Below, piece by piece: positions 1-56,049 of a stretch of DNA of 64,000 bases. The notes below the pieces were generated by a model. That model did no database searches and was not told the origin of the DNA. It was given only the letters and a program-made list of their open reading frames with translations. The stretch's first letter is position 1; each line of letters opens with the position of its first letter. Source of the DNA: Phlegmacium glaucopus (Eukaryota; Basidiomycota; Agaricomycetes; Agaricales; Cortinariaceae); contig MU130027.1 of assembly GCA_015039465.1 (NCBI GenBank), forward strand, positions 200,140-264,139. The letters are read 5' to 3'. Made by a program: the position numbers and the translations under genes.

Positions 1-211
1 AAACTAATCCTTCAACCGTTAACCTTAAGAACCTTTGTGAACCTTGTAAACCTTAAGGAACCTTTGTAAACCTTAAGGAACCTTTATCAACCTTACTTTA
101 ACCTTTATTAGAACCTTTGTTAACCTTAAGGAACCTTTAGGTTCCTAAGGTTCCTAAGGTTTACAAAGGTTCCTTAAGGTTAACCTTTCCCACCCCCTGG
201 CATTTCATAAC
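1..211. mobile_element. Left arm and TIR of the fold-back element continuing at 2401-4365 (written backwards)
   Basis: Read in reverse, this stretch holds the CCAATTGG/GGAATTCC-rich subterminal array and the terminal motif CAATACTTTACGGTCCCCCA. It is followed by the tRNA-like arm that starts at 2401. The 9 bases beyond the terminus (written 212-220, read ccaaacctt) match 4366-4374 beyond the other end, giving a 9-bp target duplication. The arm is a near copy of 18870-19130. Confidence 0.9.
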
Positions 212-372
212 TTCCAAACCAATTCCAAACCCAATTCCAAACCAATCCCAAAATAATTCCAATCCCTCCATATATTAAAGGTAAGACGAGTCTAGACTGG
301 TAGACTCGTCTAGACGAGTCTTACGGACGGTTTAGACGAGTCTAGTCTAGTCTAGACCACCTAGTGTCGTTT
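212..372. mobile_element. Half of a 340-bp-class MITE, written backwards
   Basis: Complementing the written bases in place gives the same sequence as 17700-17874: a ggtttggttaagg array, then TGATCAGATCTGATCA-type palindromes, then the degenerate TIR. The other half lies at 4375-4536. The fold-back element therefore inserted into this MITE within its ggttaagg array. Confidence 0.85.
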
Positions 373-731
373 CTGAAGCAGGACTCACACGTTATTTTAT
401 TTTATTGACGACTAATTATAAGTATTATGTAACATCTCTCTGAAACTAGTGGTTTTTTACAAAGTCTTTACTTATTAACTTCACAATATAACGAGTCTTC
501 AAAGTCACGTGGTCTATCTCTCGTGTCGGTGGGGTTTTGTCAACTTGGACTTGAGTAGGTACGTATATGGAGTACCGAACCATAGAGAGAGGAAATGGTG
601 GTGAGGGAGACTCGATTTGTTCGAACTTCGATATAAGACTGATTGGGTTGTCATCGAATGGAGGTTTCGTTCACAAATAGTGTCAAATTTGTACAAGAAA
701 ATATTGAATACTCTAAAACTGTCCACTGTAG

Positions 732-2400
732 TACGGAGGATTCTTCTGATGACAGAGGTCCTTTCGATTACGAGTCTTCCCACGTTTTGGACTTTCTGAG
801 TGTCCAATGGGGAGTCAACCTTTTTCTACAGAGACTAGACGTAAGACTCGAACTTAGACGGTTGTATCAACAGAACGTAAACTCCTGAAGAGAAGGTCTG
901 TTCTAAAGAGATACACTTAGTGAGAGTTGAGTCTAACACAATACTTGCTGACTATGCGCGTATCGGGGATAGGGAAAAAGGGGAAGAAGAAATGACATGT
1001 TGTATGGAAGGGGATAACAGAGGGAGAATGTGGTAAAGGGGAAACGGGACTTGGAAGGTACATGATATGAATCGATAGCGAAGGCAAGGGAGATAGAGAC
1101 TGAACATGGCTGAGTATGAGGGTCGTGCCTGGTAAGGGAATAGAGACTGAGCTGGGGAATCATATATTCTCGGTATGGGTATCGGTACTAGGGATCAAAT
1201 CTGGAAACATAAGGATGCCAGAATTAGATGTGTCGAACGAGTCTTGGACGGCAGGAGTCAAGAATGAACAACTTATACTAACGTTGACATATTTGTCAGG
1301 GATCAATAAACCAGATAGCCGGGTCGTGGCTTGCGCTCACGTTCGAATATCAGCGGCATTGTCTAACTCCGAACAGTCTTTTTAAGAGAAACCGAGAGAG
1401 TACTAGACCTATCTGAGTCTCTCTTTATGGTTTTCAATATGGTACTTCACGCTTGTCTTGTCGTCCCAGCTCGTGTTCCGAACGACGTTTTGAGACAGAA
1501 CTTTCTTTTTAAATAACACGACTTTCGACAATTATCTCTATATAGGGAACTCCAATCCCTCGTAAGAGTATAAAGACGTCTCCGATCGTTCCGAGAACAC
1601 TTTAACGTTCTAGTTGTACGAAAGTATTGTTTCTTTTAGTACCCCAGATACTCTTTGGAACTCTCAGTATACGTTCTTTTTCAACCCCAACATTTCGTTT
1701 TTAATTTCCTCAGTAGATCCCAGTAACGTTGAGAATCTTTTCGAGTTTTCAGACGGAGTAGATCTGTCCTTACCCGTCATGCACAACGTAACTTGTTCTG
1801 ATAGTTCCTCTTTTCAGAAGTATTTGACGAAGTGTTTCCGCAGATATGTCTACTTTGAACAACGGATCATGCTGTCGAATGTTTACGACCTACAAGTGTC
1901 AGGTTTCACCCAATGTAGTAGTGACGACAAAAGGTTAGTCGTCCCCAACTTTGACACCCTTTTCAGTCAACGTCCAGACAGTTGGCGTACTAGTTTCTTC
2001 CGATAGAACGACGTGTCGACGTTGAACCAGTACTTTACCGTTTACGTCTTTCGTACTGAAAATCACGACTACCTTGATCAGTGGCACCGTATTTGATATT
2101 GAGAGCGGTACAGTTAGAGTTTCGACTCCTGATACCCAGACTCTCACCTCTTTGTACGTCTTGTTGAGCAAAGAACCCTCATGTTAGAAGTCGTCTACCC
2201 TGATCACTTCTCTCGTAGTTTCTATACTTTTGTTAGGACCCCTTATAACAATTAGACATGTTAACCTCAGGGGAACCCTTCGCTCGACCTTTAGAAACAA
2301 CTCACAACCTCTAAGACTATTTCCAATGACCACACGTATCACTGGTGACACGTTTTCTCTTTTTTCTACGTCGTGAAGACCTTTCACTCTTTTCTCTACG
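732..2400. pseudogene. Coiled-coil protein gene of an unnamed fungal family, hidden in the reversed block and cut by the window edge
   Basis: The coding strand is the in-place complement of the written bases; in corrected orientation the gene lies on the minus strand from about 1669 down to 1. It starts with ATG at written 732-734 (MPPKKTTVSRKANAQKG). A Lys/Glu/Leu-rich coiled coil follows (for example DLHSELESAN and DLDRLREKYQKLYHEV), then a globular part with motifs SADGTSHRGINYNSRHVNL and TRFLGVQSSADGTSEESI. It still reads on at the window edge. It is broken by a one-base slip near 805-815, a solo LTR at 938-1362, a slip near 1700, and an in-frame TGA near 2300. I recall similar unnamed proteins from repeat-rich Agaricomycetes but know no function. 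The upstream stretch, written 373-731, shows no further gene. Confidence 0.8.
938..1362. mobile_element. Solo LTR (425 bp) inside the reversed coiled-coil gene
   Basis: In the in-place complement the element runs TGTTATG...CGTAACA and is flanked by gattg on both sides (written ctaac at 933-937 and 1363-1367). Removing it and one duplication restores an open coding frame across the site, reading ...LSTQIEACQKNSLW.... The termini and 5-bp duplication fit a gypsy-type LTR. Confidence 0.9.
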
Positions 2401-2452
2401 TAATTAATCACCTGACTTGTAGCATATGACAAATAAAAGAATACCAGTAAGG

Positions 2453-2529
2453 AGGATTGAACCAAAGACCTTGAGAAAGGTCATGTGACATAATTCCCAC
2501 ACTGCATCAGTGATCTACCAACTGCACCA
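2453..2529 (-). repeat. tRNA-derived (SINE-like) Pol III box sequence
   Basis: On the minus strand, tggtgcagttggtaga resembles an A box and ggttcaatcc resembles a B box. They are about 52 bases apart. No clean acceptor or anticodon stem can be folded by eye, so I do not call a tRNA. It sits in the arm of the fold-back element. Confidence 0.5.
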
Positions 2530-2931
2530 TCACCACTTGTAATATATACAAAAACTAATGGTTATATATACCCCTCCCACCTGACATAAATAATATATTC
2601 TGGCACTTGCTGAAGGGCTACTACCATGTATTATATACCAAAATGTTCATAAAAATGAGGGGAATCCATTGGTAATAATATTGTGATGTGATACGCACTT
2701 TTATATGCAATTATATGCAAAATACTGCAGAATATACAGTAAAATAATGTGCTCTATGCTTATAAATGAGCTGAACATGACGCACCTTATACCGATAGAA
2801 TGCTACACTGCTAGGGAATATAACCATACTATTAGCATGGGAATATAAGCCCTTTTTCAATATTAAAACATATAAAATGTGTCAAAACATGCACCAGACA
2901 TGGTGCATGCACGTGATTTATATATATTCTG

Positions 2932-3688
2932 AGGACTGTACACTCCCCCACATACTCTGCTGGAATCCAGTGGACTTCACTGGACTCCACCAGACTCCAC
3001 CAGACTCCAGTCCAGGATTTTTCAGTGTGACATGGGCCAAATTTGTGAGTCCAGTCTGCTGAAGTCCAGTGGAATCCAGTAAAATCCACCGGAGTCTGCG
3101 GATTCTGGTGGAGTCTTACCAGACTTATTCCGCCAGACTTGTCTGGTGGACTCTGGCAGACTCCACCACCATTTCAACATATGGCCTCAAATGCAAACAA
3201 ATATAAAAATATAGTCTTGGCAGGCACACAGTATTTATATTTAGCTATCATCCCAGAAAGGCAACTCTAAGTCTCTAAATGATACAACTCAAATTTGGAC
3301 TTAAATTTGTTTAATATAGCCCTTTCTCAATAAGGAAAGAAGCTATTAATAGATTTTAAATAAATTTAGGGTCCTAAGAAGATCCTCTATCATTCTATTT
3401 AATATTTCCTCTTTGGAAAAATTTTCCCATAGGCCAAATCCCATTTAATGCTGTGTTTAAAAATGTATTTTGCATTTTTCTCAATAAGAAAAGAAGCTAT
3501 TAATAGAATTTCAACAGATTCAGGGTCCTAAAAGGATGGTCTATCATTGAGTCTGGTGGAGTCCAGGATGTGACATGATGTGACATATCAGAGTCCAAGT
3601 GGAGTCCAGTGGAGTCTGGTGGAATCTGGTGGAGTCTGGTGGAGTCCACCGGATTCCAGTGGAGTATGTGGGGGACTGTAAAGTACAG
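2932..3688. mobile_element. TIR element with CCAGTGGAGTCC-type subterminal repeats, nested in the fold-back element
   Basis: It is flanked by tatattctg on both sides (2923-2931 and 3689-3697). The inverted ends share ...CCCCCACATACTC followed by arrays of CCAGTGGA and GGAGTCC at 2965-3165 and 3545-3665. The AT-rich core (3170-3545) has a partial internal duplication (caataaggaaagaagctatt at 3329; same motif at 3483). There is no coding capacity. Confidence 0.85.
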
Positions 3689-3924
3689 TATATTCTGGAA
3701 GCTGTTATTAGCACAATTCTATTGGTATATGGTGTGTCATGTTCAGCTCATTTATAAGCATAGAGCACATTATTTTACTGTATATTCTGCAGTATTTCAC
3801 ATATAATTGCATATAAAAGTGTGTATCACATCACAATATTATTACCAATGGATTCCCCTCATTTTTATGTGTCAGGTGGGAGGGGTATATATAACCATTA
3901 GTTTTTATGTATATACAAGCAATG

Positions 3925-4001
3925 ATGGTGCAGTTGGTAGATCATTGATGCAGTGTGGGAATTATGTCACATGACCTTTCTCAAGGTCTTTGGTTCAATC
4001 C
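3925..4001 (+). repeat. tRNA-derived (SINE-like) Pol III box sequence, inverted partner of 2453-2529
   Basis: An A-box-like stretch at 3925-3940 and a B-box-like ggttcaatcc at 3992-4001 lie in opposite orientation to the copy at 2453-2529. They are part of the palindromic arms. Confidence 0.5.
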
Positions 4002-4374
4002 TCCTTACTGGTATTCTTTTATTTGTTATATGCTACAAGTCAGGTGATTAATTACTTGAGTAGGAAGTTGGCAATTGGAATTCTTGGAAAGTCCAATCTT
4101 TCCAATTGGAATACTTGGGATCCTGGGAATTCCAATTGGAAACTGGATTTCTACTGGAAAGCTTGGAATTTGTTGGAATGGGATTGGAAAGAAATTCCAA
4201 GAATACATGACTTTACAGTGAGACACAGTACTAAATTCTTCCAATTGGAATTCCAAGGAATTCTGAGGAATCCAAGAAATTCCAAGGGATTCCAAAGGAT
4301 TCCAAGGGATTCCAAAGGATTCCAAGGAATTCCAATTGGAAAGGGTGGGGGACCGTAAAGACCTCCCAAACCTT

Positions 4375-4536
4375 AACCAAACCTTAACCAAACCTTAACA
4401 GAAGTAGGTAGTAGGTCTCTATTCCCTCAGATCCACTTGGATCCACTCAGAATCTGAGCAGATCTGAGCAGATCTAGTTGGATATAACAATTCTGATCAG
4501 ATCTGATCAGATCTGGTGGGGGACAGAAAAGTACTG
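4375..4536. mobile_element. Second half of the split MITE
   Basis: This is the reverse complement of about 17535-17720: aaccttaacc array, GATCTGATCAGATC palindromes, then the TIR GGTGGGGGACAGAAAAGTAC. It pairs with written 212-372 across the inserted fold-back element. Confidence 0.8.
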
Positions 4537-4627
4537 CACCTTTGTATAAACTTGGTTACTGGTGACCTCATCCTCTCTAAGTTAACAAGTAGCTTTTAGT
4601 TATAGTTAACATCCCCTAGCACCTGTC

Positions 4628-6338
4628 ATGTCTAACAGATCCAATACCTTTTCTAAGTTTTTCCCACCACTGAAGCATTTACAAACTGAGACAACTTTGT
4701 TTTGGTCACGAAGTGCTGAAAATGACTACCTCTTGGTTGGTGAAGAGCAAATAACTGGGCCTCAAGGTTTGTATGTTTGTTCTTTTTGGTAATGTGTCAT
4801 AAATTTATACTCTACAGCCCCCAAGGCAGAAGATCCTAAAAGCTTTAAGCATCTCAGCTCTGCCTTGAATAAAATCATCAAGAAAGTCATTATTGAATGG
4901 CCACATCACAATTCTGTTACCTCAGACATGGATTCTAATGGCAATGTACACCATTGTACTACGCTATGGGCTTTATGCCTCTTTTCTCAAACAATCTGTC
5001 AAGGCTCCTCAACATCATGTATTCAAAAAAAGATGACAAGATGATTTAGTGCTTAAAAGTCTAGTTAGGTCCAGTCATTTGGTGCCCAGGGGCTCTAACT
5101 GAGACCAAGACCAGTTAGCCTTCATCCCAGAACCAAAAATAATCTAACTGGACTGCAACTAACCAGTTATAGTCAGCTATTTGCAGTTACTAACCAGTTA
5201 GGACCCAAAAACTGAAATTCAGCAAAACACAGGCCAATCCGTCTGTATATGTCTCAGTAAATATTATTTTCACTTATTTTAGCTTTAAAGTGAGCCCAAG
5301 AACACTTAATTCAGTGAAGAATTGACATATCTATGAAAATAATCTTAAAAATCTACCATTTTGACTAATATTTAGAGATTTGACAATAACTCAGTCAAAT
5401 TTTGAGCATTTTTGATGTTCTTAGGCACATTTCAAGGGGTAAAATAGAGGCAGTTATAACCAGTTATAATCAATTATTTAACAGTCAGTTAACTGCAAAA
5501 TAACTGGTTATTTTATTTTTAAAATTGACTAACCTTAACTGCAGTTAGGTTAGCTCTGCAGTCCAGTTAGGTCTCAGTTATTTTCCAGTTAACTAACCTA
5601 ACTTTCAAGCACTAAGATGATTACAGAATTGACAAACCTCAAAGCCACATTGGAAGGCAGTGTCTGTTAATTTTTTGTAAAAAATAGTTTTTTTTTAATT
5701 AACTTTTCACAGAAAGATCAGTTTTCCCAACATGTCTTCCTCCAGTTCCAAGAGCTTGGGCAGGATTACAAAGATAACTCCTACCTAATGATGTGTTTGA
5801 AGGATGGGAAGGAAAAGCAAAAAGAGTTGAGGCTTGCTCATGATACAGGGAAGGCATGTAGAAGGCAGGCAGTATGGGTTGAATTACAGCAGCATGTTAT
5901 TATTTGTATCTTTGCCATCTCACTTGATTAGCATTTTCTCTTATTCTAATGAGCAGTGTTCCAGATGCAGAACTTTTGGGTCTGGATAAGAAGTACATGA
6001 TAGAATCCCTTGCACTAGTTCAAGAAGGGCTTAAATTTGGGATTTTCAGAGAAGATGAGCCCAACTATATGATGATTGGAAATTCTATCCACAGGATCTG
6101 TGCATCACCTTTTAATAACCAGCAGATGTACTCATTGATATTCTGGACAAAAACAGATGCTGAGGATAACCATCCCACTGTGGACAAGATTGACATATTT
6201 TCAATCCTTCTAATAATTTTCAATAATTTTCAGTTTAGTGGAGTTATTTACAACATAGAGAAGCTCAACAAATCTTTCTCTTTACAAAATCCTCATACCC
6301 AAATTGAGAGCAATGTCTCAAAAACCTTAACACTGTAA
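4628..6338 (+). pseudogene. Unrecognised multi-exon host gene, interrupted by a hAT-type MITE
   Basis: Exon 1 is 4628-4766 (MSNRSNTFSKFFPPLKHLQ...). It is followed by a 51-nt intron (GTTTGT...CTACAG, 4767-4817) and exon 2 from 4818. Exon 2 slips one base at an A7 run near 5026-5032; after that the frame reads KDDKMITELTNLKATLEGS once the MITE (5047-5614) is removed. A further coding block (about 5711-5890, DQFSQHVFLQFQELGQDYKD) and a last one at 5955-6338 (VPDAELLGLDKKYMIESLA...) follow, but I could not place the splice between them. The product is predominantly soluble with a charged middle. I do not recognise the family. Frame damage and the insertion make function unlikely. Confidence 0.55.
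5047..5614. mobile_element. hAT-type MITE, 568 bp
   Basis: The ends are TAGTGCTT...AAGCACTA with a perfect 8-bp duplication agatgatt (5039-5046 and 5615-5622), the hAT signature. The longer imperfect inverted repeat contains AGTTAGGTCCAGT-like motifs, and tandem ccagttata/taactggtta motifs occur throughout. There is no open frame. Confidence 0.9.
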
Positions 6339-16944: not shown

Positions 16945-17997
16945 TTGACTGGGTTAATATTTCAATCCTTATCCTTATCCTTGATCTCACCTTCAGAAAT
17001 CATGCAAAATGATGTAAGTCTGTTCTTAATTCATATTTTATGTGATCTAATGCAAAGGTGTGGGACAATTTCAATGCCCTTGGTGTTAGGGGTTGGAAAG
17101 GCAGTTTCCATGCCCCCAGAAATGCACTTAGGGGTCTGCACCATCACAGTCCATATTACATGTTCCCTCCAAGATGGGTGGGGTCATTTTCCACCAAAAA
17201 TTCTCAAAAATATGAGATCATATTCAACACACCTGGACAATGGATAGCCGCATTCTTCAACTTTGCAGGTGTTATTGGAAGACATGCCACAGTCACTTTC
17301 CATCTGGTAACAACCACTCAACTTCAGGGAGGGAGATTCAGAGAGAATTCCAATTTTTTGTTTTATTTTTTAGTACCCTATTCAGTAATCTTTTTTATTG
17401 TCAATCACCAATTCAATGCTGTATTGCAGCCTGTCTTTGACGCTTACTGGTTGCCATGGTCTCAAAACTATAGTATCATTATAGGTGGTGTGGTTTGGGA
17501 AACCTTGATATATCAGGAACAGTTGTCTCATTCTCAGTACTTTTCTGTCCCCTACCAGATCTGATCAGATCTGATCAGAATTGTTATATCTGACCAGTTC
17601 TGCTCAGTTCTGCTCAGATTCTGCTTGGATTCTGAGTGGATCCAAGTGGATCTGAGAAAATAGAGACCTACCAGCTACTTCTGTTAAGGTTTGGTTAAGG
17701 TTTGGTTAAGGTTTGGTTAAAGTTTGGGTTAAGGTTTGGTTAGAGTTTTATTAAGGTAAGGGAGGTATATAGTTTCCATTCTGCTCAGATCTGACCATCT
17801 GAGCAGATCTGCTCAGAATGCCTGCCAAATCTGCTCAGATCTGATCAGATTAGGTGGCTTACAGCAAAGACCTCCTCATTCTACTGTCTTGCAACCCATC
17901 ATGCAGCACAACCTTCTGAATGATGATCAAGATGATGATTATGATAATGATAATGATCTGGGAGATGGTGGAGAGGATTTTAATGACCTTGATTAGA
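16945..17997 (+). pseudogene. 3' part of an unrecognised host gene, interrupted by a MITE
   Basis: An open frame from about 17058 (WDNFNALGVRGWKGSFHAP...) runs to the MITE at 17535. Removing the MITE and one duplication joins ...YQEQLSHS to TVLQPIMQHNLLND and continues in frame to an acidic tail (DDQDDDYDNDNDLGDG) and a TAG at 17995-17997. A small intron may lie near 17341-17410. I do not recognise the family, but the seamless restoration argues that this was a real gene. Confidence 0.5.
17535..17874. mobile_element. MITE, 340 bp, GTCCCC-type TIR
   Basis: It is flanked by ctcattct on both sides (17527-17534 and 17875-17882). The ends are CAGTACTTTTCTGTCCCCTA and the complement of TTACAGCAAAGACCTC. 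Inside are TGATCAGATCTGATCA-type palindromes at both ends and a central ggtttggttaagg array. This is the same family as written 212-372 plus 4375-4536. Confidence 0.9.
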
Positions 17998-18861: not shown

Positions 18862-19176
18862 TATTGTCTGAGGTCTTTACGGTCTCCCACCCTTTCCAAT
18901 TGGAATCCCTTGGAATTCCAATTGGAAGAATTTAGTACTGTGTCTCACTGTAAAGTCATGTATTCTTTGAATTTCTTTCCAATCCCATTCCAATCCTATT
19001 CCAACAAATTCCAAGCTTTCCAGGAGAAATCCAGTTTCCAATTGAAATCCTTGGAATTCCTATGAATCTTTCCAAGGATTCCAAGTGTTTCTAAGAATTT
19101 TAATTGCCAACTTCCTAATCAAGTAATTAATCACCTGACTTGTAGCATATGACAAATAAAAGAATACCAGTAAGGA

Positions 19177-19252
19177 GGATTGAACCAAAGACCTTGAGAA
19201 AGGTCATGTGACATAATTCCCACACTGCATCAGTGATCTACCAACTGCACCA
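19177..19252 (-). repeat. tRNA-derived Pol III box sequence
   Basis: The B-box-like ggttcaatcc and A-box-like tggtgcagttggtaga are read on the minus strand. The sequence is nearly identical to 2453-2529. Confidence 0.5.
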
Positions 19253-19982
19253 TCATTGCTTGTACATATATAAAAACTAATGGTTATATATACCCCTCCC
19301 ACCTGACATAAATAATATATTCTGGCACTTGCTGAAGGGCTACTACCATGTACTATATACCAAAATGTTCAGAAAACTGAGGGGAATCCATTGGTAATAA
19401 AATCGCGATGTGATACGCACTTTTATATGCAATTATATGTGAAATACTGCAGAATATACAGTAAAATAATGCGCTCTATGCTTATAAATGAGCCGAACAT
19501 GACGCACCATATACCGATAGAATCGTGCTAATAACAGTGTTCAGAATATATATAAATACACGTGCTAGGGAATAGAACCATACTATTAGTCTGGTGAATA
19601 TAAGCCCTTTTACACATATTAAAACATATAAAATGTGTAAAAACATGCACCAGACATGGTCCATGCACGCTCATAGTATGGATAGATTCCCTGAACACTG
19701 TTAGTAGCACAATTCTATCGGTATAAGGTGCGTCATGTTCAGCTCATTTATAAGCATAGAGCACATTATTTTACTGTATATTCTGCAGTATTTCACATAT
19801 AACTGCATATAAAAGTGCGTATCACATCACAATATTATTACCAATGGATTCCCCTCAGTTTTCTGAACATTTTGGTATATAGTACATAGTAGTAGCCCTT
19901 CAGCAAGTGCCAGAATATATGATTTGTGTCAGGTGGGAGGGGTATATATAACCATTAGTTTTTATATATATACAAGCAATGA

Positions 19983-20058: not shown

Positions 20059-20376
20059 TCCTTACTGGTATTCTTTTATTTGTCATATGCTACAAGTCAG
20101 GTGATTACTTGATTAGGAAGTTGGCAATTGAAATCTTGGAAACACTTGGAACCACTTGGAATATTTGGAATTCCTTGGAAATAGTTGGAATGAAATTGGA
20201 AATAATCTTGGAAACAATTGGAATTACTTGGAAACATTTGGAATTCCTTGGAAACATCTTGGACACAATTGGAATTATTTGGAATTCCAAGGACTTCCAA
20301 GGACTCCAAGGATTCCAAATGTTTCCAAGGAATTCCAATTGGAAAGGGTGGGGGACTGTAAAGTATTGTATTGTCT

Positions 20377-27497: not shown

Positions 27498-29508
27498 ATG
27501 CCAAATACCAGGTCAAAGAAAACAGAAGGGGTGCTCAAAGATTCCAGGAAAAGTATCAATAACGCAACAACAGCAAAGAAGTGGCTCAGCAAGGAAGAAC
27601 TAATTATAGAAGGAGAATCCCTGTCACTGGCGTCGCTGTCCCAAGCGCTTATGTGGCTCGCAGCAGGGGACAAGAACACTATCGAGCAGCTAGTAGACGG
27701 AATACGGGCGGTAGCTTTCTGCTTGGAAATGGTCAATGCGACAGCAGTGGTAGAAAAGACGGTCAAAGAGTTTGGGGAAGCAACAAAGAAATGGATAGAG
27801 GAGGCCACGGCAGAGATTAAGAGAGTGGTAGAGGAAGTAGCAGAGGGAGCGAAGGGACATAGGGAGGAAGTAACGGGGGTAGAAGGAAACCGGAGTTGGG
27901 CAGAGGAGGTGGAAGAAGAAGAGAGGACAGGGGCATTACCGCAAAAAACCATCAACAAAATAGCCAAGGCAATTCCGAGCTATGCACAAGCTTTGGCGAG
28001 AGAGTGGAACAAAGAAAAAGACAGAGAATCAGAAATGGTCCATCAGGATTACAGAGCCAAAGAGGCGATTAAAAGGAGAAAGATCTTAATAGATGGTCTA
28101 GAAGGGGTGATAGGAGCAGCAGATGGTCTGGCGCCAAAGGAAATAGTAGTCAAAGCCAACCTAGCAGTGGAGGAAGCAAAGGAAGAAATGGAGGGATATG
28201 GGTGGTACGAAGAAGGGGAACCGAAAGTGATAGCAGCCAAGGTGTTAGAAAACGGGGGGGTGGTTTTGGAGATGGACTCAGAGGAGTCAGCAACGTGGTT
28301 GCGACAGGAGCAGGTGCAGAAAGCCTTCGAGAAACATTTTGGAGGTTCAGCAAAGATCAAGAAACCGGTTTACCAGGTAGTGGTGGACTTCCTACCAGTA
28401 ACACTAAGAGACACACTAGGAGACCTTACCGACAAAATGGAGGAGAACAACAGCCTGTCACCCGGGACGATCGCAAAGGCCAAATGGATAAGAGCACCAA
28501 AAAAATTGGAAAGAAGGGCAGAGGTTTGCGCACACTATTCTCACTGTGACAGGGAGGAAGGAAGCGAGTATATTGATACAGAAAGGAATAATCGTGGAGG
28601 GGCAGAGGATGAGGGTCAGGAAGATGGAGGAGGAACTGAGAAGATGCTTTAAGTGCCAACAATATGGCCATACGGCAGCCAAATGCAAGAACACGCAGGA
28701 CGTCTGTCCCAACTGTGCCAGAGCACACCAGAGTAATCTCTGCGATAAGGCAGCAGACGGTTTCCGATGCGTCAATTGCAAGAAGAGAGGACTAGCAGCC
28801 AATCATGCAACATGGGACTGTGCGTGCCCCAGATACACAGAGGAGAGGGCGAAAGTAAAGGCAAGAGACCCAGGGAATCAGTATGTGTACTTCCCAACAG
28901 AAGAAGAATGGACATGGCAACGGAAAGAAGAAGGGGGGAACCAGGAAGGAAATGTAGGAGGGAGAAGGAGAAGCGAGGAGGAGGAGATAAGAAAGGGTAG
29001 AAGAGGCTGGGGGGCAGATGAGCAAGACCGACAAGCAGACAGAGGCTGGGCAGGTATGAAGGAGTTGAGAACACTGGAAATGGAGGATGTGATGGGAAAT
29101 CTCGACGAGTGGTTGTATATAGAAGAAGGAGGAAAGAACAAGGGCCGGAAGAATAGAGGAGGAGTGGAAGGGGCAGGGGTAGCGAGAACACAAGAAGGAA
29201 GCAGGATAGCGGCTCCAGGTCGACCAGGCCAAGTACAACGAGAAACAGGCCAGTTGTGGGAGAACAAATACCAGGTCAATCGCAATTACGGGACTTCTGG
29301 GCGACAGGAACCAGCAGCAGAGAGGAGGGAGAACACGAAGAAAACATCAACAATGAATTCAATATCCAAGTATGATGAACACAACAAATCCCAAAATATT
29401 GAAGATTTGGCAGCAAAACACCAGGAAATCTTTGAATGTACAACTAGCCACGCTACACAGTGTAGAGAACAAATACAATATGATATGCATTCAAGAACCA
29501 CACATTGA
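27498..29508 (+). pseudogene. LINE ORF1: gag-like nucleic-acid-binding protein
   Basis: MPNTRSKKTEGVLKD opens a charged, helical N-terminal half (about 340 residues). A one-base slip near 28528 switches to the frame with three zinc-knuckle-like modules: CFKCQQYGHTAAKC, CPNCARAHQSNLC and CVNCKKRGLAANH...C (about 28645-28830). A Gly/Glu/Arg-rich tail ends at 29508, overlapping the ORF2 start by 137 bp. It is typical of Tad/I-clade ORF1 proteins that coat LINE RNA. Confidence 0.85.
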
Positions 29509-32500
29509 TTTCCAGGCTTTCTCGAGGGCGACAGGAGTCTGGACGGCAGTATACCCAACAGGCTTCAAGCACGATGCAAACTCAGAAGACAGACCCAGGG
29601 CGCTCACCCTAGTACACACGAGGCTATCAACAAATGTGTGGACACAAGTACCAGTCGATTCACTGGATATAGTTGCCATACGCATCAAAGGAGAGCAAGG
29701 GACGTTAAATGTATACAATATATACAATGATTGCACGCATTCCGAGACAGTTAGGGTATTGGAGAGGCATTTAGAAAGGAGGGAAGGGGAAGCACAGTAC
29801 AGAGAAGATGGGGGGGACAGAATAGAAGGGGATATATGGTTATAGGATTTCAACAGGCATAATCCATGGTGGGAGGATGCAAGAAACAAAAGGCTTTTCA
29901 CAAGGTGGAATCTAGAGGAAGCCCAAATCCTTATTGATGTCCTAGTGGAACGCAATATGGACCTGGCATTGCCACCATATACGCCAACGATTGTCAACTC
30001 AAGAGGGGGAAGAACTAGACCAGACAATGTCTTCATATCAGAAGAACTAAACAGTTGGATTGTCATATGTAAAGTAAAACAAGAAGACACACCGCCTCTA
30101 GCAGACCACTTCCCAATCGTCACACATATCAAACTGGACATCGAGAGGAGTATAAAGACAAGCATATGGAACTTCAAAGCCACGGATTGGAAAGAATTCA
30201 GAAAAGAGTTGAATAAAGAGATGGAAGGTCTACCAGAACCCAAGGAGCTGGAGAGGAAGGAGGATGTGGACGAGATGATAGAGGGTCTGGATGAGATGAT
30301 CATAGGGGTAATGGGAAAAGTGGTGCCAAAAAGCAAGCCGTCACCATATGCTAAAAGATGGTGGAACAAGGGCTTAGACGAGCTGAGGAAGAGAGCAAGG
30401 AAGTTGGCCTCCAAAGCTGAACACTTCCTGGAATTTCCGCTACATTCCAGTCATGAGAAGGCTAGGAAAGCAAGGAATAAGTACAGCGAAGGTATAAAGA
30501 AAGCTAAACAGGACCATTGGGAGAATTGGCTCGAAGAAATATCGGGCAAAACACTTTGGGACAGTCACAAATTCATGGCTATGCCAGCAGCAGACGGCAG
30601 CAAAACTAGAGTCCCCACCCTTATAACCAGCAACCAGGAGGGCAACAAGACAGAAACGCAGGACAACGAAGGGAAAAGCAAATTATTACACGAAGTCTTC
30701 TTCTACCCACAGGTGGAAGAACACGGAGTAGACCCCAATCACTTATATCCAGCACCAGCGTTCAAGTTCGAAACCATCACAGACAGGCAAATCGAAAGAG
30801 TGGCTAAAAGTCTGAGCCCGTACAAGGCACCAGGACTAAGCGGCATCCCAAATGCGGTACTCACCCACTGCGCAGACATGTTAGCACCGCGACTAGGGCC
30901 CATCTTTAGGGCAACCTTCGAGTTGGAACACTATCCGGGCAAATGGAAGAAATATTGGACAGTAGCTCTTAGAAAACCAGGAAAGTCGGACTACACTCTG
31001 CCAAACGCGTACAGACCCATTGCGCTACTGGACATTTTCGCTAAACTATTGTCAGCCTGTGTCAAAGAGAATCTGGAATACCACATGGAGAGGCTAAATC
31101 TGTTGCCAAAGAATCAGTACAGAGGGAGGAAGGGCAGAACAGCAACGGATTCAGTACACGCACTGATAGATTTCACCAAACAAGCTTGGCGAAAGAAGGA
31201 GGTGGTAATCGTCTTCTTAGACATCAAAGGCGCTTTTCCGAACGTGTCAATCCCAGTACTAATGCACGATATGAGGAATGCGGGCATACCTCAGAAGTAC
31301 ACCAGATGGATTGACAACAAAACCACAGGAAGAGAGACAGTCATCACATTCAACAACTACACATCTCCACCTTTCGAGGTGAAAAACGGTTTGGACCAAG
31401 GTTGTAATCTATCACCGTTCAGCTATAACTGCTACAGCGCTAGTCAAATGAAAGCGGTGATAGGATCCATATAGCCTCTAGGTCTGTAAACAGGTTATTT
31501 TCGCGGTTTAACAACTTTGCAGACACTCGCGGATACCTCGCAGTTACCATTACCACTCGCACTCTCGGCCGCGGTTACCAGTAATTCTCGCACATCCTTC
31601 GCATCTCGCACAACATACTATAATCCTCGCATAACCTTCACACATCACTTCTACGACCTTCGTGACTATCCAACGCACCCTCATTTCTCTTAGCGTTTCA
31701 TACTTCGACATATCTTCAACTCTCTCTATCAATACTGGACTTAGCCATTTCTTTCCTTCGCAACCACACCTTCGCACAGCTTCTCTTTAATCTCACGGTC
31801 TTTCACGGCTCGCATACACATCCCTTTCACTGGTTTGATCATGGTCCGTGTTGTTTTCAACTTACTTTCTTTTAAAATTTCTATATATATTATTATTTTA
31901 TCATCTCCTTCGAAACAGGAGGTCATTCAACTGACCTCCTTACTCATCACTTCTATTGTTATTCTATCTCCTATTTCTTTGTTACCAAACTACTGGGCCC
32001 ATGTGACTTCGCATTAGCTCAATTTTTACATTACTGTTTCGCATATCCGCACCTGGCTAGCTTGTTACTCTTGTATTAAGTACCTGTAGCAAGTAGGAGG
32101 CAAGGCGGACAAGAGACAGCCAGAGTTTTGATCCCACAAACTTTGCAGCAACGTTCTAAGTCAATAAGTCTCATTCTTTAAGCTACTTCGCGTACTGCGT
32201 TATCATTCGCGAACTTCGCTATCTTCACGGTCTACTCTTCTTGCGTATCTCAATACCGCGAACTTCTCTTTAAAACTCTATCGAGGAAATCTACATTAAC
32301 CCCTCCAAACTACGTTACTACTTGCGGTCTGATCCCACCGCAGGTACATCAGCGGTAGGAACAAGTGAACAAGAACTAGCCAGCACGTACGCAGACGATG
32401 GAGTATGTGTGGTATGGGCAGACACGCTGGAGGAGGCAGGGGAGAAGATGATGGAGATGTTCAACAGGATAGGGGGGCCAAGGGAATGGGGAGAGACGCA

Positions 32501-34237
32501 CCATTCATTATACGAATATCACAAGATCGCAGGAGTGGCAGCTAGTCGCAAAAGAATACCAGATCCAACAAACCCTAGCAAAAGGATCAAGCAAGGACTA
32601 ATCACCATAAAACTAGACGACCAACATTCTATCACCACAATTCCGTCCTACAAGTTCTTAGGAGTGATCATAGACAGCGAACTACGGTTCAAGGAGCAGG
32701 CAGTATCAGCCATAGGAAAGGGTACCAAATGGACAAACAAGTGCGACAACTCACCAAAAACGTGAGGGGGATGAAAGGAGAGTTAGCGAGGAGAATGTAC
32801 TACGGAGCAGCAGTACCAAAGATGCTATACGCAGCAGATGTATGGTGCGCACCGGTGCCGGGGAGTAATCGAGGAAAAGGAAGAGGGAACACAGGAGTAA
32901 TCAGGAAGCTAGAAAGTATTCAGAGGAAAGTAGCAATCCAAGCAGTGGAGGCACTACGAACCATGCCTACGGACCTACTCTTCGCTCATGCAGACATGAT
33001 GCCTATGCGACAGCTCATCCAAACACATTGTCAAGCAGCAGCGCTGAGACTTGCGACAATAGGAGAGGACCACCCATTATACAAATGAGTCCAGAAGGCG
33101 GCGAGAAGACATCCCAAATCGCATCCGTCTCCGCTACATGGTATCCTTCAAAACAGTAGAGTCAAGCCGTACACAATGGAAAACATAGATCCAAAACCGA
33201 AACATCCAAACTGGGCCTCAAATATTCAAACAAGGATAGCGGAGGACAAGGAAGAGGCATGCAGAGAGGAGGAAACAGAGGAAGCAGATATAAGGATATA
33301 CACCGATGGGTCAGGAAAGAATGGGAAGATAGGGGCAGCGGCTGTACTGCGGTTTGGCTTCCGTCCCAGGAAAACGGCGAGGTACCATTTGGGAAGTAGT
33401 GACAAACACACGGTCTTCAAGGGAGAGTGTGTGGGAGAACTCCTCGGACTGCGTCTGTTACACTTGCTAGGGCTACAGGTCAACTTAAACAGATGGAAGG
33501 CAGTAATAGGAGTGGATAGTCAAGCAGCCATTTGGAGGCTGGATCGGAGAGAGGGAGGGCCAGCATTGTACATAGTAAAGGAAATCCACAAAGGGGCGAA
33601 CAACCTTATGCGAAAATTCCCGAGACTTCAGATAAAGGTCAGGTGGACTCAAGGGCACGTGGGATTGAAAGGAAACAAGGAGGTGGACAAAGAAGCGAAG
33701 ATGGCAACAGAGGGGGAGGAAAGGAACCAAAACAGTGATTTCGGCATACTAAAAAGCACCCTGCCCACGAGTAAATCTGCACATAGGCAGTGGCTCAGAG
33801 CCAAGGAAAAGAAAAGATGGATCAAAAGTTTCCAAGAAGGCCCGAGACGCAACAGAGTAGCAGCCATCGACACATCCATGCCATCCAACAAGTATAGGAA
33901 GATGACAGCAAGATACCCCAAAAAACACACGAGTATCCTGACACAATTACGAACACAACATATACCGTTACGAGCCTATCTCCACAGGTTCAAACTAGAA
34001 GAATCACCCACATGCCAGCAATGTGGGGAGGAACCGGAGACTACTACACACTTTCTTTTCTTCTGCACAAAGTTTGAAGGACAGAGGAATAAACTCAAGC
34101 AGGAGCTCAAAAGGGGAAGGGAACTCGATGCCAGCATCCTGGGGGAGAAGAAGTCTATACCAGCAGTGTTCAGATACATCGAAGCAACAAAATGTTTTGA
34201 AGACTCGCATGGATCATTCAGCCCGCACGGCAATTAA
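29372..34237 (+). pseudogene. LINE ORF2: endonuclease, reverse transcriptase, RNase H
   Basis: The AP-type endonuclease has KIWQQNTRKS, CIQEPHI, then DFNRHNPWW and a C-terminal ADHFPI. A TAG at 29843-29845 sits just before DFNRH. RT motifs are SPYKAPGLSGIPNAVL, NAYRPIALL, FLDIKGAFPNVS, LDQGCNLSPF and, after the inserted LTR, STYADD. RNase H has IYTDGSGKNG, GELLGL, VIGVDSQAAI and WTQGHVGLKGN. A CQQCGEEPETTTHFLFFC finger-like tail ends the protein. The other defects are a slip near 32740 and a TGA at 33086-33088. Confidence 0.9.
31458..32350 (+). mobile_element. Solo LTR (893 bp) in LINE RT
   Basis: TGATAGGATCC...GGTACATCA is flanked by agcgg (31453-31457 and 32351-32355). Removal joins QMKAV to GTSEQELASTYADDG in frame. 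A second, partial copy lies at 62817-63605. Confidence 0.93.
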
Positions 34238-38557: not shown

Positions 38558-40480
38558 GTCATGTCACATTGCCAAATGCATGACAAAGTGTGAAACACTT
38601 GAAACATAGCTTGCTCTCTCAGTTCTGCATCATTTTAGATGATTTTTTTGGTGTGATAAATGTATTATAGCATCATAGCAATATATAGTGATTGAACTTT
38701 TATGATAAAAATGGTAATTATGTGGTTTTTTGAGGTGGCTGTGCTTTCTTTATCTGGTGGACTGAAAGTTCCAGGCAATATAACATTTCAATTATTCATT
38801 TCTGCAACATGTTTTGGTGATGTGAAATTCTCTACCATGTATTTTAAATATTTCTCACCAGTTGTTTTATTTTATTTCACACTCAGGACCTAATAAATGA
38901 GCAATTCCCACCCAAATACCTGCCAAAATGTGTTAAGTTCAGGAACTCTATTCTGGAGTATCAGATGGAGTTTGATTGGAACGGAACCACAGAATGGAGA
39001 AGGACTCTAGCCTCAGCTTATGTGCTGTGCTACCCTAAACCTTCATGTCCTAATTTCGGAGTAAGAACAGAATGGAGTGGAACTGGAAGTTGCGGGAACT
39101 TAGAGGAAGAATAGGAAGAGGAAACTAGGTTGATATTCGAACTGAGGAAAACATACAAGTTTCGAGTACTTAAATAATAAAAGGAATAGCAACTGAATAA
39201 AGGATAAATATAAAGTGCTGCGTTCTGCTCCCAGAAGGTCCTGCATTCTTGGGTGAATAATCCATAGCATGCTGACTGATAGTGGGAAAGTGATGACAAA
39301 GAAATAGTTGTTATGGCAAAGGATGTGGTAATGGGTTTAGAGTATCGTCAGAGGAGCCAGAATGATACAGAGAAGTCTTGGAGTTGGATGTAGGAGGAGT
39401 AGATCCAGGAACAAGGGAAGGTACTGGAACGGAGTATGGAGTACCGGAGACAACTCCAACAGAGCTGGACCGGAGTCACATAACAGAATGTAACAAAATG
39501 CCATTTTCGTGACTTCCAGCCAATGGGGGTTTATATAACTTGTCTTAGTGATGTTAAATGTTCTAATATGTATTTTAAATATTTATTAGCAATTATTTTA
39601 TTTTATTTCACACCCAGACCCTTAAAGATGATCAGTTTCCACCCAAATTCCTGCTAAAATGCAGTGTTGGCAACTTCTAGCCTATAGAACACATCTAAAA
39701 CTGGTTTCTGTAGCTCATACTACTGACACAAAATAGTATAACATGTATTATGAACATCTCTCAGGAGTTAGAATTTCTTATTTCACACTCAAGCCCTTAA
39801 AAATAAGTGAGCTACTGCCAATTCCAATCCAAATTTGAAACTTCCAGCCTCTAGAACTGTTCATAAACTGAGCTTTTTAGCTTTTCCTGTGACCAAATAT
39901 TGTCTATGGTGTGCCAAAAATATTCCTCAGGAATTTCATTATTTTATTTCACACTTATAATCCTATAAATTAGCAAACCCAACCCAAATGCCTGCTAAAT
40001 TGCAATTTTTGAGACATCCAGCCTATAAACTCTTCAGAAACTGAGTTCTGCAACCTATCATAGTGACAAAAAATGCTCTACCATATATTTTCAGCATTTA
40101 TCAGGAGTTATATTTTTTAATTTTGCTTTCAACCCTTCACAACTGAGTGATCTTCAGCCAATTTCATCCAAAGTGTGATGTTTGAGACTTCCAACCTATA
40201 GAACACTTCATGAACTAGTTACTGTAACTAATGTTGGTGATATGACATCCTCTACAATGTATCCCAAACATTTCTCAGGAGTTTAATCTTCTGATTTTAA
40301 ATGTTGAGCTTGATAAAACAAGCCAATGCCAGCCAAATTGATGGCTGAAGCTTCTAAGGAATAGAACTCTTCAACAACTCATTTATGAGATTTGTTTTGG
40401 TATAATATGTTATATTTTAAATTCTGAACATTTCTCAGGAATTAGAATTTTTAATTTCATGCTCCAAGTATGAGATATGG
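38558..40480. repeat. Degenerate tandem repeat, unit about 170-180 bp
   Basis: At least six units share the order cttccagcctatagaac, then ...tttctcaggagttagaa, then atttcacactcaa.ccctta, then ccaa.tgcctgctaaa. Units are visible around 39500, 39670, 39840, 40015, 40185 and 40350. A solo LTR splits an early unit. Confidence 0.7.
38931..39495 (-). mobile_element. Solo LTR of the gypsy family (565 bp)
   Basis: TGTTAAGTTC...TGTAACA is flanked by aaatg (38926-38930 and 39496-39500). Confidence 0.93.
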
Positions 40481-51563: not shown

Positions 51564-54500
51564 ATGTCGAGCGAAAGACCATCTAAGAAGAATCCCATAA
51601 CCAAAGCTATTCGATATGTCAAAGGGAAGTTATCTTCCCCTCTTCCTTTGTCAAATCCGCCCACACCATTGTCGATCAACGTGGATCCAAGCTCTGATAA
51701 CCGTATAGCAACAACAGACGCTGGAACAAGGTGAGCAGCAGAATTCCCTATCTGCTGGATTATTGACTTAGCCTCCTCATTCTTTTAAGCCACCTGCCGC
51801 TCAATATGGTCCCTGTGGTCAGCGTCGATCATGCTACTACCGCGGTCATGACCACGGAAGCAGACACAGTGTCTCTCCCAAATTCCGTACCAGTCTCAGC
51901 AGCGATACCTATTGTGGACAGGCAACTTGGTTCTGCTAGTAACCGGGGACAAGAAACTCCATCCACGGTCAGCATCCGTGTTGCGTTCACGACTGTCGTT
52001 ATTAATGGTTCCTCATTTAGGACATGGCTCCGATGTCTGCCTTCCAGGGTGCTCACGATGTACGCCTGCTTCACTCAACAATTAACATGGCCAATAGTGT
52101 AAGCATCATTCCATCTGTACAAAGATTAATCCGTGTACTGAGATTCTGTCATCGTGTCAGATAACTCAGATCCACATGCATGCGCCATCCAACGCTGATG
52201 GAGATGAACAGTCGAACTCTCGAATCATAGTAAGCAATATAATCTTTGGAGTCGGATGATCTGCGCTGAATGCTAGTTCGTAGGATGCGCTACTACATGA
52301 GAAGCTCTTCCCACGTGCTCAGTTTGCGGAATACGATGCAGCAATTCCACGCAACGCATGTACGGAGAACACTCGCAAGGACATCCTCGATTCACTGCGA
52401 GTGTGGGCCAATAATGACAAGACAACAAAGGTATACTGGCTCAATGGGATGGCTGGAACTGGCAAAACGACAATTGCTTACTCTTTCAGTGATATCCTCC
52501 GTGAAATGGGTTCCCTTGGTGGTACCTTCTTCTGTTCTCATCTCCAGTCTGATACCAGTGATGTTCATTGCATCATTCCCACCATCTCCCTTCAGTTGGC
52601 CAAGTATTTCCCTTCTCTGCCCCAACTTATCTTGGATGTAGTAAAAGCTGATCCAAGTACTGACTGCACATCTTGGAGGATTGGCAAACAATTCCTGAAT
52701 TTCATGGTGAGACCACTTGCTGCATACAAGGATAGTATCAGAGGAGGAGCAATCCCAGTTATTGTTCTTGATGCCCTGGATGAGTGCTCTGACCAGTCCC
52801 TTGTGGCTGAGTTGCTTTCTGTGATTGCAAAGTATAGTAAATCTCTTCCTGTCAAGTTCTTCATCACTAGTCGTCCAGAGATAGTGCTCAAGGAAACTTT
52901 TGATCATTCTTGGGATCATTCCAACTTCATCCTTCATGAGGTTGGAAAAGAGATTGTCAAGGCTGATATTGAGCTTTATATTAAAGCTTGCTTGCTTAGC
53001 AAAGTGAAGCACAATAGGCATAATTGGCCTCCTCAGGCTGAACTTGAAAGGCTTGTCAGTATGTCTGGCACCTTGTTCATTTATGCAGCAACTGTCTGCA
53101 AATATATTGCTCAGAAGGGTAGTTACAACATGCCTCAGCGTCTATCAGATGTGGTCAAATTGGAAGCAACATCTGATGTAACCCATTCACTGGATATTCT
53201 TTATGATAAAATTTTGGATGCTGCCTATGCCTTTACAACTGAAAAGGAGAAGATAAATATAGGCATGGTTCTCACAGCTGTTGTATATGTCTATAATCCT
53301 CTTTCTATGACTGCTATCAGTGCTTTGCTGGAGATGCCCATAGAATACACTGTGGCTGCCCTGTCTTCTCTTCATTCCTTGATATACATTCCATCTGAAG
53401 ACTTTGATAAGCCCATCTCAATATTTCATGCTTCCTTCTATGATTTCATCAGTAATCCCATTCGTTCCCCAAAACACTATCTTGACCCATGTATTTCACA
53501 TAAGCATTTGGCACTTCAGTGTTTGTCCTTGATGGAGAAAGAATGGTCAGAGGAAGAAAGGGTGTCTTACTTGGCAGAGAGGAGATATGGAGACATTCCT
53601 CAATCTCTTGCATATGCTTGTGGTAGCTGGGTTTCACATTTCACATATGCAGACAACAATGAAATTGATGAATTGAAGCATTTTTTCCAAAGACATCTTC
53701 TGAGATGGATGGATTGTTTGAGTATTTTAGGAAAGTTGGGAATAGCAATGCATGCATTGCATGAGCTAGAAAAATGGGCAAATGTAAGTGATCATATTTG
53801 TGCACATGAATTTCACTTATAACAGAAAACAGTCCAAGAAGCTGTTGAAGATGACAGTGATTGATGCTGCAAAATTCCTGAAGGAAAATTATGACTTTAT
53901 TAAAAGTAAGAGTCTTGAAGGATGCCCTTCAGCATTGGTTTGGCTGCCAGAGACATCAGATATTTGGAAAGCATATGGAAATAAGATGGATTGTCCATGG
54001 AAACTGAGTGTTGGAAGAAGAAAGGCATGGAGCCTGTCTGATGCAGTCCTAAGACATTCACATGAATCACATGATGTCAAATCTGCTGTCTTCTCTCCTG
54101 ATGGTATGCATATTGTGTCTGCATCTGATGATAATACTGCACGGGTCTGGAATACAGCCACAGGAGAATGTGAGGCAGAGCTGAAAGGACATTCAGAAGT
54201 TGTCAACTCTGCTCTCTTCTCTCCTGATGGCATGCATATTGTGTCTGCATCTGATGATAACACTGCATGGATATGGAATACAGCCACAGGAGAGTGTGAG
54301 GCAGAGCTGAAAGGGCATTCAGGAGACGTCAAATCTGCTGTCTTCTCTCCTGATGGTATGCATATTGTGTCTGCATCTGTTGATAACACTGCACGGATAT
54401 GGAATACAGGCACAGGAGAATGTGAGGCAGAGCTGAAAGGACATTCAAACTCTGTCAACTCTGCTGTCTTCTCTCCTAATGGTATGCATATTGTGTCTGC

Positions 54501-56049
54501 ATCTGATGATAATACTGCACGGATCTGGAGTACAGCCACAGGAGAGTGTGTAGCAGAGTTGAAAGGACATTTGGGATGTGTCAAATCTGCTGTCTTCTCT
54601 CCAGATGGTATGCAGATTGTGTCTGCATCTCATGATGGCACTGCATGTATCTGGAATACAGCCACAGGACAGTGTGTAGCAGACCTGAAAGGCCACTTGG
54701 GACATGTCAAATCTGCTGTCTTCTCTCCTGATGGTATGCATATTGTCTCTGCATCTAAGGATGGCACTGCATGTATCTGGAATACAGGCACAGGAGAGTG
54801 TGAGGCAGAGCTGGAAGGACATTCACACTGGGTTGAATCTGCTGTCTTCTCTCCTGATGGTATGCATATTGTGTCTGCATCTAATGATTACACTGCACGG
54901 ATCTGGAATACATCCACAGGGGAGTGTGAGGCAGTGCTGAAAGGACATTCACACTGGGTCAACTCTGCTATCTTCTCTCCTGATGGCATGCATATTGTGT
55001 CTGCATCTTATGATGGCACTGCACAGATCTGGAATACAGCCACAGAACCATATGAAGCAGAGTTGAAAGGACATTCAGAATATGTCTCCTCTGTTGTCTT
55101 CTCTTCTGATGGTCTGCATATTTTGTCTGCATCTCATGATCACACTGCACGGATCTGGAATACATCCACAGGAGAGTGTGAGTCAGAGCTGAAAGGACAT
55201 TCAGGACGTGTCAACTCTGCTGTCTTCTCTCCTGATGGTATGCATATTGTGTCTGCATCTGATGATAACACTGCACGGATCTGGAATACATCCACAGGAG
55301 AGTGTGAGTCAGAGCTGAAAGGACATTCAGGACGTCTCCTGTTTGCTGCCTTCTCTCCAGATGGTATGCATATTGTGTCTGCATCTTATGATGGCACTGT
55401 ACAGATCTGGAATACAGCCACAGAAGAGTGTGAGGCAGAGCTGGAGGGACATTCAGGATGTGTCTACTCTGCTGTCTTCTCTCCAGATGGTATGCATATT
55501 GTGTCTTCATCTTCTGATAGCACTGCACGGATCTGGAATACAGCCACAGGAGAGTGTGAGGCAGAGCTGAAAGGACATTCACACTTTGTCAACTCTGCTG
55601 TCTTCTCTCCAGATGGTATGCATATTGTGTCTTCATCTTCTGATAACACTGCACGGATCTGGAATACAGCCACAGGAGAGTGTGAGGCAGAGCTGAATGG
55701 AGACATGTTTCTTCTATCTATGTCTGATACCAGTCAATTATCTGGTTTATCATCAATTCCTAATGGTATTTATATCCACCATGATGCTTATGGTAGACTT
55801 TATCCCTCATTACAGTTATCATTTCTTGATATATATCAAGACATGATATTCCACACCATGGAACATAAAATTTGCATTCCATCACCTTTTCGTAAGCCAA
55901 GATCTGTCTGCTATCACTTGTCCAAAATATGCCTTGGATATGGATCAGGAGAAGTTTTGGTTCTAGAAGTATGTATGGCCCCTTATATTACATTCCATGT
56001 TTGTATTTCATTGCTCAATGTTTTCTCTCAACTCTAGTGTCAATCTTAG
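51564..56049 (+). CDS. NACHT-WD40 NLR-like protein, intact seven-exon gene
   Basis: Exons are 51564-51730, 51790-51979, 52021-52098, 52161-52229, 52284-53783, 53833-55968 and 56038-56049. All introns are GT...AG and the phases agree, giving 1383 residues. The N-terminal 168 residues are Ser/Pro/Thr-rich and include MSAFQGAHDVRLLHSTINMA on its own exon. NACHT follows, with Walker A GMAGTGKTT (about 223-231), Walker B VIVLDALDEC (about 327-336) and FFITSRPE. After a helical region, 13 WD40 repeats of 42 residues (about 749-1290) form a presumed beta-propeller sensor. A unique tail of about 90 residues ends the protein. Fungal NACHT-WD40 proteins act in heterokaryon incompatibility or non-self recognition, where ligand binding releases the NTPase-controlled N-terminus. 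The N-terminal effector here is not a type I recognise. It is the only clearly intact host gene in the window. Confidence 0.92.
54073..55698 (+). repeat. 13 tandem 126-bp repeats encoding WD40 units
   Basis: Each unit encodes SAVFSPDGMHIVSAS-x-D-x-TA-x-IWNTATGECEAELKGHS with few changes. The nucleotide identity between units is high enough for unequal exchange. Differences concentrate at the residues after GHS, around the D-x-TA-x turn and in the inter-strand loop. Confidence 0.95.

Follow-up and report, generated by a model that had tools for sequence, protein, structure and literature searches.

Backward-written blocks in a draft, probably fungal genome: a 2,400-base stretch reversed without complementing and its probable origin in gap patching

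The locus described here raises a simple question: how can a stretch of genomic sequence come to be written backward, letter by letter and without being complemented, in a genome assembly? The window, that is, the whole stretch of 64,000 nucleotides analysed, corresponds to C22:200140-264139 (C22 and similar labels denote contigs) in an assembly of 60.5 Mb and 259 contigs. A first-pass annotation of this DNA claimed that the first 2,400 bases are string-reversed without complementing, and took this for either an artefact or a deliberate edit. The features to which the following text refers are given below in window coordinates; sequences in the reversed part are given in their true order.

1..2400 (C22:200140-202539), no strand: string-reversed, uncomplemented block, based on reversed-string homology and the restored join
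1..211, no strand: reversed end of an inverted-repeat element that continues normally at 2401-4365
212..220, no strand: 9-bp duplication CCAAACCTT at the reversed end of the element
933..937, no strand: target-site duplication CAATC, one side of the solo LTR
938..1362, no strand: solo LTR, 425 bp, TGTTA...TAACA, its insertion site being the end of the open frame
1363..1367, no strand: target-site duplication CAATC, other side of the solo LTR
1361..2299, minus strand of the reversed string: 313-codon open frame of a repeated coding family
2400..2401, no strand: inner junction, with normal orientation from 2401; reversal in place makes the sequence continuous with that of the copy at 18,875-19,300
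2401..4365, plus strand: rest of the inverted-repeat element in normal orientation, based on the restored join
4366..4374, plus strand: 9-bp duplication CCAAACCTT at the normal end of the element

The claim of reversal holds, since it is the reversed string and not the written one that matches the rest of the window. Reversed, the block aligns to positions 17708-17877 at 93.5%, to 20109-20162 at 93%, to 20165-20368 at 82% and to 38728-38889 at 84%; the annotation had proposed a realignment of the reversed block. At an E-value of 1e-3, the block as written has no match elsewhere in the 64-kb window and shows only weak mirror matches to itself. Against positions 2401-64000, the best bit score is 258 for the reversed string and 29.2 for the written string, while the top score of 200 dinucleotide shuffles is 37.4. 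In the test for a string-reversal artefact, the reversed string matched normal genome DNA, and the written string did so on neither strand.

The dinucleotide composition of the block is mirrored as well. The observed/expected ratios are 0.99 for CpG and 0.27 for GpC (CpG as expected and GpC depleted), the mirror image of the adjoining positions 2401-5000, where they are 0.12 and 0.76, respectively. In region 400-930, in which CG had been described as frequent and GC as nearly absent, there are indeed 20 CG and 0 GC, and the lowest GC count among 6,107 overlapping 531-bp windows of 2401-64000 is 3. A mirrored bias of this kind is what is expected for ordinary DNA written backward.

One could suppose that the elements read the same forward and backward, by chance or by mirror symmetry, so that the reversal is merely apparent. 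In the excerpted text of PMC11099658, reversed sequences are described as matching their originals above expectation by way of approximate palindromes, and the weak mirror self-matches of the block point in the same direction. In our judgement, the approximate-palindrome effect, as presented in that excerpt, cannot produce matches this long between different loci. The bit scores given above argue against symmetry, and so does a comparison of 1,272 tiles from 322 kb of sequence, in which reversed-string matches were collected at an E-value of 1e-12. In every one of the 442 reversed-string matches (442/442), one partner is a called block and the other is normal DNA, and none joins two normal stretches or two blocks. 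The 4,564 matches of the tiles as written comprise 4,267 between normal stretches, 296 between blocks and one mixed case, and none joins a block with normal DNA. Note that the block limits were preset from the earlier homology, so that this is a test of consistency rather than an independent one. Moreover, none of the normally oriented repeat copies on C22 is among the matches of the two reversed queries, for one of which 40 of 58 candidates were scored. Mirror symmetry is rejected on the shuffle scores and the pairing of tile matches, and we consider it exceedingly improbable.

The inner border of the block is sharp. When positions 1-2400 are reversed in place, the block and the sequence from 2401 onward form an unbroken alignment to 18,875-19,300 with a score of 422; for the written string, the alignment does not begin until base 2400, and its score is 327. 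The annotation's statement that reversal joins base 2401 as in the copy near 19107-19145 is thereby borne out. The outer border is an N run: the region upstream of base 1, which had been singled out for checking, consists of 10,215 bases, all of them N (C22:189925-200139), directly adjoining the window. The left edge of this N run is in normal orientation. N runs in this assembly may stand for sequence that was left out rather than for gaps.

An edit to this window alone, made by hand or as a test, would account for a letter order that is impossible in nature and for a boundary that is exact. Over the 6,000 bases compared, window positions 1-6000, the letters of the assembly are identical to those of the window, and other contigs carry backward copies with boundaries of their own. 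The identical letters and the recurrence exclude such an edit, which we regard as very improbable. Of the two options offered by the annotation, the artefact stands, and the deliberate edit, as one confined to the window, falls.

Reading the block backward uncovers features of ordinary kinds, as the annotation had claimed. The inverted-repeat element that spans the junction is flanked by the 9-bp duplication at its reversed end and, as had been predicted, again from position 4366. This duplication sits in a repeat of similar letters and is weaker evidence than that from the LTR. At the termini of the element, an inner inverted repeat of 18 bp is exact, and the outermost 5 bp are not inverted. 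A transposon with a 9-bp target duplication would presumably be a candidate for the Mutator-like type. In its normally oriented part (2401-4365), the element contains a long internal inverted repeat, the arms of which carry look-alikes of tRNA-type A and B boxes, as judged by eye; in several other copies in the genome, this head-to-head pairing recurs with a spacing of about 150 bp.

The solo LTR has TG..CA ends and no internal region. Its target-site duplication, which had been given as gattg, is found on both sides as CAATC, the reverse complement of GATTG. Compared with the solo LTRs of retrotransposons in general, it is alike in its length of 425 bp, its ends, its 5-bp target duplication and its relatives in the genome, and no difference is left once the block is read backward. 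Normally oriented relatives are found at C22:58966-59401 and C22:66645-67080, the identical LTR pair of one element (C22:58966-67082). This element is an LTR retrotransposon, and since its two 436-bp LTRs are 100% identical, its insertion is probably recent.

The coding region expected within the block proved to be the open frame of 313 codons. Searched as a protein in a six-frame search, it yields 64 genomic matches, of which the best, at C25:94303-95241, is 90% identical over the full 313 amino acids; on these grounds the features inside the block are real. No Pfam family reaches the cut-off for this frame. Neither C22 nor C75 appears among the matches listed by this search, though both contigs carry backward copies of the frame. 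The features are thus hidden from ordinary searches, as had been stated.

The defect recurs throughout the assembly. The block as written, when compared with the whole assembly, has matches on nine other contigs, and at the eight of these where the sequence was inspected (all except C222) it was called backward in every case. On C22 itself, a second string-reversed block lies outside the window at about 9.86-13.41 kb (C22:9860-13415). Reversed, a 500-bp part of this block has matches at 22 places; as written, it matches itself and a single place on C9. The 301 bp of C22:13110-13410 are C22:1723-2023 reversed, at 100%. The block stops about 460 bp before the next N run.

Five further blocks, ranging from 130 to 2,477 bp, were tested by reversing them in place and aligning them to the normal element at C22:58966-67082, and continuity was restored in all five. 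Three of them are located at N runs and two are free of N, as listed below. Note that these blocks were found through the reversed LTR and were chosen for having normal LTR sequence adjoining, so that they are not a random sample of gaps.

C10 block, 1,406 bp, at an N run: boundary alignment extended from 266 to 1,714 columns
C141 block, 1,144 bp, at an N run: from 91 to 1,257 columns
C228 block, 2,477 bp, at an N run: from 96 to 2,615 columns
C78 block, 130 bp, N absent from the 4 kb inspected: from 1,694 to 1,829 columns
C237 block, 1,680 bp, N absent from the 3.3 kb inspected: from 136 to 477 columns

At the C228 block, the alignment of the normal left side stops at element position 4995, and that of the restored block picks up again at 5514; the 518 element positions that are missing compare with 554 N and 16 unaligned bases. 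On C75, reversed stretches flank a single N run on both sides, and on C227 about 22 bp separate the end of the reversed LTR sequence from an N run. At C237:858696-862022 (L014), two backward stretches, 143-1822 and about 1868-2321, adjoin each other with no N; perhaps a gap was filled here from either side until it closed, and each of the two patches was written backward. In total, reversed sequence is found at or within about 25 bp of seven N-run edges, namely those on C22, C75 (twice), C228, C227, C10 and C141. These edges were called by homology, apart from C75:113037, where the 6-mer score described below was used at the edge itself. On C22, one of the six N-run edges touches a reversed block.

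The polarity of a strand cannot change, and the block is consequently a matter of text handling. For a biological copying or joining of DNA in parallel polarity, only the letters of the assembly speak, and to our knowledge no polymerase or ligase works in this way; in addition, N runs adjoin three of the five blocks tested, and the letters and the dinucleotide bias are mirrored together. We regard such a process as practically impossible, and the backward blocks are almost certainly an error of computer assembly rather than biology.

As the source of this error, we propose, with a probability of roughly 85%, that a gap-patching step spliced in patches that were reversed and not complemented. 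Positions 1-2400 would then be real genomic sequence, consisting of repeats and a frame of a repeat family, that was brought into the wrong letter order by software. A step that extends contigs into scaffold gaps, or closes the gaps, would splice in patch sequence, and in part of the patches the letters would be reversed without complementing, which is the same as complementing an opposite-strand patch without reversing it. By another route, an extension growing outward might be appended in the order of its growth. A patch shorter than its gap would leave N on the outer side, as at 1-2400, and a patch spanning its gap would appear as a backward stretch between two normal stretches, with no N. 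We infer both that the pieces are gap patches and that a coding slip lies behind their letter order. The occurrence of the blocks at N runs or at N-free sites, their lengths of between 130 and about 3,500 bp and their presence on both sides of a gap appear to fit gap patches better than whole contigs. The N run directly before base 1, the restored joins and the gap length at C228 speak for patches as well. Against them stand the N-run edges that no reversed block touches (on C22, one of six is touched), the second C22 block, which stops short of its N run, the N-free blocks, for which a former gap is conjectural, and the chance that N marks sequence that was left out.

Whole contigs are the basis of a competing explanation, in which the blocks would be components of the scaffolds: when these were built, small contigs with a minus-strand placement would have been written complemented and unreversed. 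The resulting letter order would be identical, and the second block on C22 and those on C78 and C237, which have no N at their borders, count in favour of this explanation. The C78 block, at 130 bp, is short for an independent contig and adjoins normal sequence with no N, and on C75 both sides of a single N run are reversed; these two points against it are no more than suggestive. On balance, we consider scaffold components unlikely as the source.

For the gap-patching explanation, the pattern would fit a long-read gap filler of the PBJelly type. In the excerpted text of PMC3504050, PBJelly is described as extending flanks into gaps, splicing in consensus sequence and leaving N where a gap is only reduced, and in that of PMC7550596, on mycorrhizal fungi, ALLPATHS-LG with PBJelly is mentioned for hybrid fungal assemblies at JGI. 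The "overfilled" gaps in the former excerpt resemble our blocks in that sequence is spliced into a gap, either at one edge, where some N stays behind, or over its whole length. The errors reported there concern gap size and scaffolding, whereas in our case the sequence is right and its letters are reversed and uncomplemented. Among the matches listed in a literature search, judged by titles and the openings of abstracts, we recognised no report of such a reversal fault in PBJelly or other gap fillers, and the part of PMC6733440 that was consulted yielded nothing on this point. PBJelly itself is thus named only tentatively, as a possible rather than a probable source.

The blocks should be distinguished from ordinary inversion errors in scaffolds, which are reverse complements. 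The two are alike in that a block in the wrong direction lies between normal neighbours. Inverted scaffold segments can still be matched by BLAST or six-frame translation, whereas the blocks described here do not match their normal copies.

A rough idea of the frequency of the defect can be obtained from three repeat families. The first-look candidates, backward versus normal, number 9 versus 156 for the element repeat (queries of 300 and 400 bases, the latter being the first 400 bases of 2401-4365; 5.5% of the sum), 58 versus 1,124 for a further repeat (390 and 300 bases; 4.9%) and 9 versus 228 for the LTR (425 and 436 bases; 3.8%). The backward share is thus about 4-5.5% of first-look candidates, a rough figure for which the query lengths differ. 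Scoring covered 40 candidates per normal set, 40 among the 58 backward ones, and both sets of nine in full. Backward copies were matched 44 times on 33 contigs for one repeat (40 of 58 candidates scored, with the place on C237 inspected) and nine times for another, and those of the LTR were found on eight contigs besides C22.

BLAST and six-frame searches miss backward blocks, and by inference the blocks should also escape gene finding and read mapping. Near gaps, repeats and genes would then be lost, false unique sequence would arise, and the mutation bias would seem inverted. If strands are mishandled in a gap-patching step that is in wide use, this fault might have left uncomplemented backward blocks at the edges of gaps and in closed gaps of many public draft genomes, above all in repeats and unseen by ordinary alignment, as with the approximately 4-5.5% of copies of three repeat families here; we give this generalisation somewhat less than an even chance. 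The defect can be detected by searching with the reversed string, and if one common tool is responsible, other assemblies patched with the same tool need to be screened.

In addition to homology, a 6-mer orientation score was used. This score detects the block in the window and that on C22 at about 9.9-13.1 kb. For the 300-600 bp closest to the edges on C228, C10, C227 and C141, its values are close to zero or positive, although homology shows reversed sequence there. The score is weak in gene-like DNA, and the orientation calls rest on homology instead. Some regions flagged by it were rejected. C22:58947-59501 and C22:65983-67448 contain normal LTRs, and C22:5122-5819 and window positions 59559-60070 belong to a CG-rich degenerate repeat that has the same orientation at both places. 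Window positions 59460-60260 are a CG-rich degenerate minisatellite, scored as reversed by 6-mers, with relatives in the same orientation at C22:5.1-5.9 kb, and was taken as normal.

Some other features of the window were observed. Positions 52401-56037 contain a frame of the NPHP3_N/NACHT type and, after it, one in which 13 WD40 stretches appear near-identical; together these form a fungal NLR-like gene. Positions 27498-34237 contain frames similar to those of non-LTR retrotransposons, with reverse transcriptase and RNase H. A chromodomain retrotransposon is also present, and its occurrence with NACHT/WD40 genes and CpG depletion would fit a fungus, probably a basidiomycete.
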